From Candidatus Sulfotelmatobacter sp. (GTDB taxonomy: Bacteria > Eisenbacteria > RBG-16-71-46), in assembly GCA_035498555.1 (NCBI GenBank), contig DATKAB010000082.1:1-37225 (forward strand): 37,225 bases of DNA, in the 5' to 3' direction. Position numbers and translations under genes: made by a program. Positions 6,669 through 11,068 of this stretch are shown here, one piece after another. The notes below the pieces were generated by a model that saw only the letters and a list, made by a program, of their open reading frames with translations, ran no database searches and was not told the origin of the DNA. Each line of letters opens with the position of its first letter. The stretch's first letter is position 1.

Positions 6669-6774
6669 CCCTGCCCACCGGGGCGACGAAGGCGTGACGA
6701 CTCGCGTCAGAAAGTCTTCAAGGCCGGCGGGGGTTGAGTCGATAACCTTTTGTGATTGCAGGCCCATCGACCGC

Positions 6775-6790
6775 TGGCACACACTGTGCT
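6775..6790 (+). promoter_or_regulatory. Sigma-54-type promoter ahead of the lptC-lptB-rpoN operon (upstream copy)
   Basis: The sequence TGGCAC, five bases, then GTGCT has GG at 6776-6777 and GC at 6788-6789, with exactly the 10-bp spacing sigma-54 requires. Against TGGCAC/TTGCW it differs at one base (GTGC for TTGC). The predicted start of transcription is near 6801, about 30 bp before the first lptC ATG. rpoN is the third gene downstream, so this would be an autoregulatory loop. The match is seen; use is inferred. Confidence 0.5.
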
Positions 6791-6796
6791 TGATGC

Positions 6797-6813
6797 TCGG
6801 CAAACCCTTTGCT
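6797..6813 (+). promoter_or_regulatory. Second sigma-54-type promoter match, 23 bp downstream of the first
   Basis: GG at 6799-6800 and GC at 6811-6812 have the required 10-bp spacing. The -12 box TTTGCT is a perfect match, while the -24 box CGGCAA matches the consensus at four of six bases. The predicted start near 6824 would give a very short leader to the ATG at 6831 but a normal one to the alternative lptC ATG at 6855. Confidence 0.38.
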
Positions 6814-6830
6814 AGCGTGGGTTCCACGTC

Positions 6831-7463
6831 ATGACCGGACCCCGAGAAACTGGCATGAATCACGCCCGCAGGGCGCCCCCCGGCAGCCACCGCGGCCGGG
6901 TGCTGCTGGCCGCGCTCGGGCTGGGGCTCGCGGCGTTGATGGCGGTGGGCTGCGGCGAACGCCGCACGGTGGGCATGTCGGGCAAGACCGGCGAACTGCC
7001 GGACCAGGAGGTCCAGGATTTTTCGCTCACCGAAACCAATCAGGGCGCGGTCGAGTGGAGGCTGTTCGCCCAGTACGCCGCCATGTACGACGTGAAGAAC
7101 CTCATCACGGCTCGCGGCGTTCGGGTGGACTTCTACGACGAGAAGTCCACGCGCACCTCGCAACTCACCGCGCGCGAGGGCGAGATCAATCAGCTCACCC
7201 GTGACATGACTGCACGCGGCAACGTGGTTCTCCAGAGCTCGGACGGCACCCGGATGTCCACCCAGGTCATGCACTTCCTCAATCGCGAACAGAAGGTCCA
7301 ATCCGACGATCTGGTGCGCGTGGAGCGCGCCGGCGACGTGCTGACCGGCGTGGGTTTCGAGAGCGATCCCGAGCTGAAGCACTTCAAGTTCCGCTCGAAA
7401 GTGCAGGCCACCGTGCACTCCAAGTCGGAAGACCTGCTGGGGCCGAGGAAGCCAACCAAGTGA
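6831..7463 (+). CDS. lptC: LPS export ABC transporter periplasmic protein LptC (predicted lipoprotein)
   Basis: LptC sits in the inner membrane and passes LPS from the LptB2FG transporter to the periplasmic bridge. The 210-residue frame has an Arg/His-rich N-terminus, a hydrophobic stretch (about 24-39) and then AVGC, a plausible lipobox with Cys41. This differs from the uncleaved single helix of E. coli LptC. The rest resembles the LptC/OstA beta-jellyroll: FSLTETNQGAVEWRLFA, then VRVDFYDEKS and LTAREGEINQLTRDMTARGNV. A second in-frame ATG at 6855 would give a more typical 32-residue signal peptide, and neither start has a strong Shine-Dalgarno. It overlaps lptB by 4 bp (GTGA), which supports the assignment. 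Two sigma-54-like promoters lie immediately upstream. Confidence 0.87.
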   Translation: MTGPRETGMNHARRAPPGSHRGRVLLAALGLGLAALMAVGCGERRTVGMSGKTGELPDQEVQDFSLTETNQGAVEWRLFAQYAAMYDVKNLITARGVRVDFYDEKSTRTSQLTAREGEINQLTRDMTARGNVVLQSSDGTRMSTQVMHFLNREQKVQSDDLVRVERAGDVLTGVGFESDPELKHFKFRSKVQATVHSKSEDLLGPRKPTK

Positions 7464-8218
7464 ACGCCACGCCTTCCGAGCTCCCGCTGCCCGTGAACGA
7501 GGGCCTGGTGGCGGAGAATCTCATTCGCTATTACGGCCGCTGGCGGGTGGTCAACGACGTCACCATCCGCGTCCGGCGCGGGGAGGTGGTGGGACTGCTG
7601 GGCCCGAACGGTGCCGGCAAGACCACCTCGTTCTACATGATCGTCGGACTGCTGCGACCCAACAGCGGACGCATTCTGCTCGAGGGCGAGGAGATCACTC
7701 AGGAGCCGATGTACCGGCGCGCGCGGCGCGGGCTCGGCTATCTCGCGCAGGAACCCAGCATCTTTCGCCGGCTGTCGGTGCGCGACAACGTCATGGCGGT
7801 GCTCGAGACCATGAAGATGCCCCACGCCGAGCGCGAGCAGCGCCTGGCGCGGCTGCTCGAAGATCTCAATCTCTCGCACCTTGCCACCCGGCAGGCCAAC
7901 AAGCTTTCGGGCGGCGAGCGGCGGCGGGTCGAGATCACGCGCGCCCTGGCGCGCGAACCGTCCTACATGCTGCTCGACGAGCCGTTCGTCGGCATCGACC
8001 CGATCGCGGTGTCGGAGATCCAGGACATCGTCGGGCGCCTGCGTGACCGCGGACTCGGGGTGCTGATCACCGACCACAACGTGCGCGAAACGCTGAGAAT
8101 CACCGACCGCGCCTACATCATGTACGAGGGCCGGATCCTGCTGCAGGGCACCGCGGAAAAGCTGGCCAACGATTCCGAAGCCCGCAAGATCTATCTCGGC
8201 GAGCGGTTCACCCTCTAG
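7460..8218 (+). CDS. lptB: LPS export ABC transporter ATP-binding protein LptB
   Basis: It is the ATPase of the LptB2FG complex that extracts LPS from the inner membrane. The 252-residue protein has Walker A GPNGAGKTT (48-56), a Q-loop in YLAQEPSIFRRLSV, the ABC signature LSGGERRRVEITRAL, Walker B YMLLDEPFVGIDP and the switch histidine in ITDHNVRETL. The motifs LAQEPSIFRRLSV and GIDPIAVSEIQ are typical of LptB rather than amino-acid transporter ATPases. The GTG start overlaps the lptC stop. rpoN follows after 14 bp, the order lptC-lptB-rpoN-hpf being widespread in proteobacteria. Confidence 0.97.
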   Translation: MNATPSELPLPVNEGLVAENLIRYYGRWRVVNDVTIRVRRGEVVGLLGPNGAGKTTSFYMIVGLLRPNSGRILLEGEEITQEPMYRRARRGLGYLAQEPSIFRRLSVRDNVMAVLETMKMPHAEREQRLARLLEDLNLSHLATRQANKLSGGERRRVEITRALAREPSYMLLDEPFVGIDPIAVSEIQDIVGRLRDRGLGVLITDHNVRETLRITDRAYIMYEGRILLQGTAEKLANDSEARKIYLGERFTL

Positions 8219-8232
8219 ATCGGGACCTTCCC

Positions 8233-9669
8233 ATGGAAATGAAACACTCGCTGAACATGAGCCTGCGGCCGGCGCTGATCATGACGCCGCGCCTGCAGCA
8301 GGCCCTGAAGCTCCTCCAGGTCCCGACTCTCGAGCTGCAGGCGATCCTCAAGCAGGAGATCATGCAGAACCCGCTGCTCGAGGAAGTGGACGAAGTCACC
8401 GAGAGCGAGGACCTGGCCAAGGAAGACGCGCCCGAGGAGACCGCCAATCAGGAGTCCGACGATCCCGCCCAAGAGGATCCGGTGGACTGGACCGAGTACC
8501 TGCAGGAAGGCTCGTTCGATCGCCCCTACGTGCCGCAGAGCGAGGTGAGCGAGGAGTTCCTCGAGAAGGTGCAGATCACGCGCACCAGTCTGGCCGACAG
8601 TCTGCTCGAGCAGCTTCACTTCCTGAGTCTGCCGGAGCCGACCATGCAGCTCGCCGAATTCCTGGTGGGGTCGCTCGACGAACGCGGCTGGCTGGCGACG
8701 CCGCTCGATGAGGTGGCGCAGGCCACCGGGCGAACGTTGGAGGAATGTGAAGCCGTGCTCCGCGTGATCCAGGCGCTCGAGCCGCCCGGGGTCGGGGCGC
8801 GGGACCTCCGCGAGTGTCTGCTCATCCAATTGGAGGCGCGTAACGAGAAGGACACGCTGCCCTGGCGACTGATCCACGATCAGTTCGACCACCTGGTGAA
8901 CCGGCGCTTCCCCGAGATCGCGCGCCAGCTCAAGGTGTCGGTCGAGGAGGTACAGGTGGCGGCGGACGTGATCGCGACGCTCAATCCCCGGCCGGGGCTC
9001 CAGGTGTCGAGCGAGGATCCCAAGTATGTGGTTCCGGATCTGCTGGTCGAGCGGGTGGACGACGAATACGTCGTGATGCTCAACGACCGGCACCTGCCAC
9101 GGCTGCGGATCTCCTCCGCCTACGAAAGCGTGCTGCGCGAGAAGAAGAAGTCCGAGTGCTCGGCGGGAGAGAAGGAGACGCGCGAGTACATTCAGGGCAA
9201 ACTCAACTCCGCGCGCTGGCTGATTCAGACCATCGAGCAGCGCCGGCGCACGATGATCAAGGTCATGAACTGCATCATCCGCGAGCAGCGCGAATTCTTC
9301 GACAAGGGCATTGCATTTCTGCGGCCGCTGACCTTGCAGCAGGTCGCGCGCCAGATCGACATGCACGAATCCACCGTGAGCCGCGTGTGCAGTGGCAAGT
9401 ACGTGCAGACGCCGCGCGGCGTGTTCGAGCTGAAGTTCTTCTTCTCCAGCGGGCTGGAAACGACGGACGGGGAGGACGTCTCGGCGCGAACCGCGAAGAA
9501 CACCATCAAGACGCTCATCGACGAGGAGGACAAGAAGAACCCTTATTCCGACGACGCGATCGCGAAGATCCTCCATGATCGCGGGCTCAAGATCGCTCGC
9601 CGGACCGTCGCAAAGTACCGCGAGCAGCTCAACATCCTGCCGGCCCGCTTCCGCAGGCGGGTGGCCTGA
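8233..9669 (+). CDS. rpoN: RNA polymerase sigma-54 factor
   Basis: It directs RNA polymerase to -24/-12 promoters and needs AAA+ activators. At 478 residues it is complete. Region I is the Gln/Leu-rich start LNMSLRPALIMTPRLQQALKLLQ, followed by the acidic region II (about 60-100). The core-binding domain and the HTH segment MHESTVSRVCSGKYVQTPRGVFELKFFF come next. The RpoN box ARRTVAKYRE lies close to the C-terminus. The start ATG at 8233 leaves a canonical N-terminus. The gene lies downstream of two sigma-54-like promoter matches, and part of a sigma-54 activator is at the left edge of the window. Confidence 0.98.
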   Translation: MEMKHSLNMSLRPALIMTPRLQQALKLLQVPTLELQAILKQEIMQNPLLEEVDEVTESEDLAKEDAPEETANQESDDPAQEDPVDWTEYLQEGSFDRPYVPQSEVSEEFLEKVQITRTSLADSLLEQLHFLSLPEPTMQLAEFLVGSLDERGWLATPLDEVAQATGRTLEECEAVLRVIQALEPPGVGARDLRECLLIQLEARNEKDTLPWRLIHDQFDHLVNRRFPEIARQLKVSVEEVQVAADVIATLNPRPGLQVSSEDPKYVVPDLLVERVDDEYVVMLNDRHLPRLRISSAYESVLREKKKSECSAGEKETREYIQGKLNSARWLIQTIEQRRRTMIKVMNCIIREQREFFDKGIAFLRPLTLQQVARQIDMHESTVSRVCSGKYVQTPRGVFELKFFFSSGLETTDGEDVSARTAKNTIKTLIDEEDKKNPYSDDAIAKILHDRGLKIARRTVAKYREQLNILPARFRRRVA

Positions 9670-9679
9670 TCCACGTCGC

Positions 9680-9718
9680 GCCGGCGGTTCGCGCCGGCGG
9701 CACCGGCTGTCAGGCCGG
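9680..9718 (+). other. Two small GC-rich hairpins in the rpoN-hpf gap
   Basis: GCCGGCG/CGCCGGC at 9680-9698 with a 5-nt loop is followed by CCGGC/GCCGG at about 9703-9718. No T tract follows, so termination is unlikely. They could stabilise or process the polycistronic RNA so that hpf is expressed differently from rpoN. This is chance-prone in GC-rich DNA. Confidence 0.3.
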
Positions 9719-9730
9719 ACGAGGTCACCG

Positions 9731-10093
9731 ATGCAGATCAGCACGACCGCAAGACATTGCGAGATCAGCCCCGAGCTTCGAGAGCTGGCGCAGGCCAAGT
9801 TGCAGCGTGCCGGCCGGTTCGCCCAGGACATTCGAGAAGTCCATCTGACCGTGACCGGCGAAAGATCCCGGCACGTTGCCGAAATCACGCTGCGGTTGGA
9901 TCATCACGAACTGGTGTGCCGCGAGGAATCCACCGAGCTCCGGGCGTCGATCGAAGGCGTGATCGACCGGCTCGAGGAACAGTTGCGGCGGTTCAAGGAC
10001 CGTCGTACCAATCATCAGCGTGTGAATCACGAGATCCAGCCGGGGCGCGCCGGCGCGGATTCGTGGGCCGAGGACGAGGAAGCCGAGGACTGA
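9731..10093 (+). CDS. hpf: Ribosome hibernation promoting factor, short form (HPF/RaiA/YfiA family)
   Basis: It binds the 30S decoding centre in slow growth and promotes ribosome dimerisation or silencing. The protein has 120 residues. The beta-alpha-beta-beta-beta-alpha fold is visible as MQISTTARHCEISPELRELA, the strand VHLTVTGERSRHVAEITLRLD and the final helix IEGVIDRLEEQLRRFKDR. An acidic tail (WAEDEEAED) follows instead of the C-terminal dimerisation domain of long HPFs, so it is a short type. The start ATG at 9731 is set by the family N-terminus MQI. Placement right after rpoN is the classical arrangement. Confidence 0.93.
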   Translation: MQISTTARHCEISPELRELAQAKLQRAGRFAQDIREVHLTVTGERSRHVAEITLRLDHHELVCREESTELRASIEGVIDRLEEQLRRFKDRRTNHQRVNHEIQPGRAGADSWAEDEEAED

Positions 10094-10096
10094 TTC

Positions 10097-11068
10097 GTGG
10101 AATCCCTGAGCGCGGCTCGACTTTTCGAGGATGAGCGACAGGATCTGCAGCTCGATCAGCTCACCGAATCGCTGGCCTCCCGGCGCGAGATCACCGTCAG
10201 CGACATCCACCGCCCGGGCATGGCGCTGATGGGCTTCGTCGAGAACTTCCTCCCCGAGCGCATCCAGATCCTCGCCCAGACCGAGCTGACCTATCTGTCG
10301 TCTCTCACTGCCGACCAGGTGCGCCAGGCGCTCGATCGGCTGTTCCAGTTCGACATGCCGCTGATCGTGGTCTGCAAGGGGCTCGAGGTGCCCGAATACC
10401 TGCTCCAGCAGGCCAACCGCAACCAGGTGCCGGTGCTGCGCACGCCGCAGAGCACCACGCCCTTCATCCACTCGTTGACCGCGTACCTCGACCACATGTT
10501 CGCGCCACAACTGTCGGTGCACGGCTCGCTGGTCGACGTCTACGGCTGCGGGCTGCTGTTCACCGGGCGTAGCGCGATCGGCAAGTCCGAGACCGCGCTC
10601 GATCTGGTCGAGCGCGGTCACCGGCTGGTGGCCGACGACGTGGTCACCATCACTCGCCGGCACGGCGACGTGCTGATCGGCAGCGGCAACCAGCTGCTCC
10701 GGCACCACATGGAAATTCGCGGCCTCGGCATCATCGACGTCCAGGCGGTCTTCGGCATCCGCTCGATTCGCCTGCAGAAGCGCGTCGAAGTCGAGGTGCG
10801 GCTGAGCGAATGGTCGAGCGAGGCCGACTACGAGCGCATCGGGCTCGACGAGCACAAGACCTCGATTCTCGACGTGCAGATTCCGCTGGTCGAGGTGCCG
10901 ATCACGCCGGGCAAGAACATCACCGTGATCGCCGAGGTGATCGCCCTCAACTATCTGGTGAAGGTGTACGGTGGCTACTCGCCGGCCGAACGCCTGAACC
11001 AGCACCTGATCGAGATCATGAAGCGCAAGAGCGCGGCCCGCGCCTGGGTTCGAGAAGACACGGAGTAG
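10097..11068 (+). CDS. hprK: HPr kinase/phosphorylase
   Basis: It phosphorylates HPr on Ser46 and removes that phosphate, setting PTS and carbon regulation. The 323-residue protein has the DRTGG-like N-terminal domain (about 30-130), the catalytic HGSLVDVYG (His142), a P-loop GRSAIGKSE (157-165) and the family signature MEIRGLGIIDVQAVFG (205-220). The P-loop has Ala where most HPr kinases have Gly (GxSGxGKSE). The C-terminal IPVxPGKNITVIAEV-like segment is present. The GTG start at 10097 leaves a 3-bp gap after hpf. The matching target Ser46 is present in the HPr encoded at 15490. Confidence 0.96.
   Translation: MESLSAARLFEDERQDLQLDQLTESLASRREITVSDIHRPGMALMGFVENFLPERIQILAQTELTYLSSLTADQVRQALDRLFQFDMPLIVVCKGLEVPEYLLQQANRNQVPVLRTPQSTTPFIHSLTAYLDHMFAPQLSVHGSLVDVYGCGLLFTGRSAIGKSETALDLVERGHRLVADDVVTITRRHGDVLIGSGNQLLRHHMEIRGLGIIDVQAVFGIRSIRLQKRVEVEVRLSEWSSEADYERIGLDEHKTSILDVQIPLVEVPITPGKNITVIAEVIALNYLVKVYGGYSPAERLNQHLIEIMKRKSAARAWVREDTE

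Follow-up and report, generated by a model that had tools for sequence, protein, structure and literature searches.

The operon that encodes sigma-54 (rpoN) appears to be preceded by a sigma-54 site that overlaps a sigma-70-type promoter in a fixed arrangement, which suggests that sigma-54 controls its own production and probably limits it. The DNA analysed, referred to as the window, is a stretch of 37,225 nucleotides from a genome of 3.8 Mb. The features on which the argument depends are as follows.

1-777, + strand: fragment of a sigma-54 activator gene, cut by the contig end (Pfam Sigma54_activat)
6669-6830: gap of 162 bp between a DUF488 gene and lptC-lptB-rpoN, holding all predicted promoter elements
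6718-6746, + strand: sigma-28 (FliA/WhiG)-type element TCAAG-N16-TCGATAAC, predicted start near 6752
6774-6790, + strand: predicted sigma-54 -24/-12 site CTGGCACACACTGTGCT (element 1), with GG at 6776-6777 and GC at 6788-6789, predicted start near 6801
6790-6795, + strand: sigma-70-type -35 TTGATG, directly after the sigma-54 -12 GC; TTG invariant in 15/15 family genomes
6797-6813, + strand: second supposed sigma-54 match (element 2), CGGCAAACCCTTTGC at 6798-6812, GG-N10-GC, kept only in the window (1/15)
6810-6818, + strand: extended -10 TGcTAGCGT, 17 bp from the -35, predicted start 6825-6827
6831-7463, + strand: lptC (Pfam LptC, 2.8e-18), alternative start at ATG 6855
7460-8218, + strand: lptB (Pfam ABC_tran), 62-85% identical to relatives in the same place
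8233-9669, + strand: rpoN, with AID, CBD and DBD domains and an intact RpoN box, ARRTVAKYRE
9575-10093, + strand: hpf/S30AE-type gene (Pfam Ribosomal_S30AE), start uncertain because the listed reading frame overlaps rpoN
10097-11068, + strand: hprK (Pfam Hpr_kinase N and C), followed by PTS genes

In many bacteria, lptA sits between lptC and lptB; in the window (6831-8218), lptB directly follows lptC without lptA between them. The closest relatives in the named collection were all Candidatus Eisenbacteria. The DNA upstream of rpoN was taken from these relatives, lptC and lptB were located in it, and 15 genomes of the same family were aligned.

A conserved sigma-54 site ahead of lptC-lptB-rpoN

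A sequence-only reading of the window had proposed tandem sigma-54 promoters on the strength of two GG-N10-GC elements 23 bp apart in the 162-bp gap, and both elements are literally present. Element 1, TGGCACACACTGTGC (6775-6789), combines the GG-N10-GC spacing with an exact -24 box, TGGCAC. Its -12 box is GTGC in the window, the TGC being invariant and preceded by G in 12 and by C in three of the 15 family genomes, with TTGC found in some other families. Against YTGGCACG-N4-TTGCW the element scored 11/13, and since this score was reached at only four places in 74 kb (both strands), about 0.009 such matches would be expected on one strand of the gap. The pattern TGGCAYN6TGCWT occurred a single time in the 3.8-Mb genome.

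The core of element 1 was invariant in all 15 aligned family genomes, in which three conserved blocks stood out against columns near background level: TCAAG...CCGATAAC, TGGCAC(A)...TGCTTG and TTTGnTAGCGTG. The second and third of these blocks were also found on other contigs of G012 and G019, bringing the count to 17/17 family genomes with available DNA; G009, G011 and G015 lack the site because their contigs end or rpoN is missing. Conservation of this kind marks element 1 as what is, as far as sequence comparison goes, a real sigma-54 -24/-12 site, and sigma-54 very probably binds ahead of lptC-lptB-rpoN, with the conservation following the first gene of the operon.

An overlapping sigma-70-type promoter

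Of element 2, the GG survives only in the window, and it was rejected as a sigma-54 promoter. The spacing on which it had been recognized, GG-N10-GC, occurs at 864 places in the window (both strands, at 69% G+C). Because element 1 was kept in 15/15 family genomes and element 2 in 1/15, the former is regarded as real and the latter as a chance match, lying over the -10 region of a sigma-70-type promoter. Retention of GG and GC in an alignment of the gap from relatives, which had been suggested as a check, was therefore seen for one element of the proposed tandem and not for the other: its first member stands, whereas its second belongs to the overlapping promoter.

The TTG of this promoter continues as TTGAC or TTGC in relatives, the -10 TAGCGT was invariant in 15/15 family genomes, and the TG extending it was kept in 14/15. 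TTG-N20-TAGCGT was present in all 15 and occurred genome-wide 23 times, as against nine for the reversed pattern. TTGATG and TGcTAGCGT together are accordingly best described, from their sequence, as a predicted sigma-70-type promoter with an extended -10 that overlaps the sigma-54 site, and as TGnTAGCGT lies 17 bp from a TTG that directly follows the -12 GC, the overlap has a fixed geometry. The start expected from the sigma-70-type promoter lies no more than a few bases from ATG 6831 (window 6813-6855), so lptC may have a very short leader or may start at ATG 6855.

The junction across the phylum

The composite of sigma-54 site and sigma-70-type promoter was found once per genome in 25 of 47 genomes of the phylum, with a single match to the reversed pattern in the 47 genomes together, the pattern having been chosen after the family had been seen and related genomes being counted as separate. 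It lies ahead of the rpoN operon in 23 of the 25, the exceptions being G039 and G032, and in G032 its context is unclear. The G039 copy (L245 1501-1544, G039:C73, opposite strand) stands ahead of an MFS-like transporter gene and is the only clear occurrence away from rpoN. A scan of 15 non-family upstream regions, less biased although its pattern was chosen likewise, found the site with TTG directly adjoining it six times on the forward strand and never on the reverse strand; 200 shuffles yielded no such site. The sigma-54 -12 GC runs straight into the -35 TTG in 15/15 family genomes and at 6/7 sites outside the family. No composite turned up in family f5 (five genomes, over 6-12 kb upstream), in f3 or in one f8 genome.

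Several other families have one more gene at the head of the operon, encoding a lipid A acyltransferase (Pfam assignment in L048). In L048, L054, L056 and L057, the sigma-54 site was found ahead of that additional gene, about 2.3 kb before rpoN. In L047 and L058, the distance from the site to rpoN is about 1.4-1.5 kb. The predicted site and its junction with the sigma-70-type promoter are thus nearly unchanged across much of the phylum and track the start of the operon.

An upstream sigma-28-type element

The block further upstream, which the sequence-only reading had not noted, was also kept in 15/15 family genomes, CGATA being invariant and the distance from AAG to CGATA mostly 20, and a de novo motif search recovered it in 12/15, compared with six in shuffles. 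The sigma-28 consensus is TAAAGTTT-N11-GCCGATAA; TCAAG-N-CGATAAC resembles it, with a distance of 19-20 as against 19 in the FliA consensus. In front of flagellin-like genes, G000 and G005 show a distance of 19 or 20. A first sigma-28 pattern, with two mismatches allowed, gave no real excess in the genome (136 versus 124). TCAAGT-N15-CCGATAA with one mismatch occurred 17 times in this genome (G000), whereas its reversed version gave 0 matches, and other genomes of the family showed a comparable excess; the copy in the window has two mismatches to TCAAGT-N15-CCGATAA. These 17 copies are taken to be a putative sigma-28-like regulon. At rpoN, the element was seen only in the family and in a genome of the same order. 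All three predicted elements of the gap, the way they are spaced and their association with the start of the operon can be read directly from the sequence comparisons.

FliA/WhiG-family sigma factors were above the cut-off in 37 of 39 genomes, and flagellin was detected in seven of 19. An operon encoding a histidine kinase, an NtrC-type activator, receiver proteins, a ParA/FlhG-like ATPase and a FliA/WhiG-type sigma factor, with a sigma-28-type motif upstream, is present in this genome (L210, G000:C203, 3281-8931) and in G006 (L314, G006:C31, 542-6629), where flagellin was not detected. We infer that the sigma factor of this operon reads the upstream element of rpoN.

Elsewhere (L305, about 1278-1370, G004:C158), a sigma-28-type motif and then a sigma-54 site precede a pilin-like gene without a sigma-70 -10; apart from that absence, the arrangement resembles the rpoN gap.

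Sigma-54 sites, activators and enhancers in the genome

A type IV pilin gene that immediately follows a PilS-PilR-like pair has a near-consensus site, TTGGCATGCGCTCTGCA, in front of it. A sigma-54 site at a pilin gene beside PilS-PilR is an arrangement known in other bacteria, and this copy serves as a predicted positive control for sigma-54 in this genome. A one-mismatch scan of the genome for sigma-54 sites gave no excess (43 versus 51 reversed); no target list can therefore be drawn from such matches, and only conservation and context are persuasive.

The genome has about 18 strong Sigma54_activat matches. It had been suggested that the activator at the left edge of the window might act on the rpoN operon, but neither this gene nor its PIG-L neighbour was matched anywhere in stretches of 10-17 kb ahead of rpoN from five relatives, and it was rejected as a linked regulator for want of synteny. 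Apart from the sigma-28-type motif, a search of 320 bp revealed no conserved enhancer-like dyad or spaced pair. The broader proposal, that the rpoN operon is under sigma-54 control, survives through the site conserved ahead of the operon start, shorn of the tandem pair and of the left-edge activator.

Autogenous occlusion as a proposed mechanism

The reading that is somewhat favoured on this layout is that sigma-54 holoenzyme occludes the sigma-70 promoter of the rpoN operon, forming a negative feedback, and that a sigma-28-type promoter stands further upstream. The gap before lptC would then be a compact multi-sigma control region. The sigma-70-type promoter would drive lptC-lptB-rpoN, and sigma-54 holoenzyme, held as a closed complex on the overlapping site, would exclude sigma-70 polymerase, so that RpoN would limit its own synthesis. 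With an activator, the same sigma-54 complex could also fire from about 6801, and the separate sigma-28-type promoter (6718-6746) would provide a second input. Autogenous occlusion is considered likeliest on three grounds: the -35 is overlapped by the sigma-54 site, the search of 320 bp revealed no conserved enhancer, and RpoN is encoded two genes downstream. Occupancy of the site, the direction of its effect (repression or activation) and the identity of the sigma factor reading the upstream element are inferred from this arrangement. Since sigma-54 at its site would sit over the sigma-70 -35, activation is no likelier than repression by occlusion. A fixed junction can be reconciled with repression and also with a choice between the two promoters.

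Another possibility, that both promoters work, with sigma-70 giving basal expression and sigma-54 with an activator raising that of rpoN (positive autoregulation), is credible but rather unlikely. Activation is possible since the genome is rich in activators, and enhancers can be distant or poorly conserved; a near-consensus -24/-12 with GC at -12 would suit it, as would the reported inclusion of rpoN in the sigma-54 regulon of several groups (PMC12316311). However, no conserved enhancer was found within 320 bp, the left-edge activator is not syntenic, and tandem promoters need no fixed junction, yet GC and TTG abut at nearly every site inside and outside the family. A further explanation, that the middle block is not a sigma-54 site but a palindromic operator, GCAC-N5-GTGC, for a repressor overlapping the -35, would account for the dyad seen in 12/15 family genomes and for a G before TGC that is commoner than the T of the sigma-54 consensus. 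It was rejected as improbable, because the dyad is broken in three of the 15 family genomes and at all sites in other families, although TGGCAY-N6-TGC is kept in each case. In G+C-rich DNA a degenerate consensus can be matched by chance, as GG-N10-GC is at 864 places, and this explanation holds for element 2. For element 1, chance is refuted by the invariance of the element in 15 family genomes and its recurrence ahead of the operon in other families, and as a general explanation it deserves almost no weight.

Comparison with known systems

Occlusion of this kind has a precedent in E. coli, where in vitro work showed that sigma-54 represses the sigma-70 promoters it overlaps, the sites concerned invariably having C at -12 (PMC4551910). 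The class I/II sigma-54-repressed promoters of that study (argT, chaC, mdfA and patA) show the same sigma-54/sigma-70 overlap with C at -12, and sigma-54 competes at them in vitro; the targets there are scattered, whereas the junction described here belongs to the operon of rpoN itself and keeps its geometry across many genera. At Neisseria pilE (PMC6755734), sigma-70 and sigma-54 promoters likewise overlap or neighbour each other and sigma-54 is able to hinder sigma-70, but the target is a pilin gene, not rpoN.

The rpoN gene of Rhizobium leguminosarum is, going by its citation in PMC3538637, negatively autoregulated. Limitation of its own expression is reported there and proposed here; as far as that citation goes, the comparison covers the regulation, and phylum and operon differ. 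Sigma-54 promoters ahead of rpoN are described for several classes (PMC12316311), and the predicted sites in these and in Geobacter (PMC2725144) have similar neighbours (lptB-like, hpf and hprK); neither a fixed overlap with sigma-70 nor an element of the sigma-28 type is mentioned in the passages of these two sources on rpoN.

Implications

A literature search returned nothing on sigma factors in Candidatus Eisenbacteria. To our knowledge, how the level of sigma-54 is set is known in few bacteria; thanks to the fixed sigma-54/sigma-70 junction, purified polymerase would allow a direct test of autogenous occlusion at rpoN. The link between the sigma-28-type element and the operon encoding a sigma-54 activator suggests a wider circuit, also in genomes in which flagellin was not detected. 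The FliA/WhiG-type sigma and the activator are encoded in one operon, which carries the same promoter motif as that of rpoN. A three-sigma switch may tentatively be envisaged, in which the FliA/WhiG-type sigma would turn on both the NtrC-type activator and rpoN, while competition between sigma-54 and sigma-70 would set the sigma-54 level. If true, this would be a conserved circuit joining three sigma factors in an uncultivated phylum.
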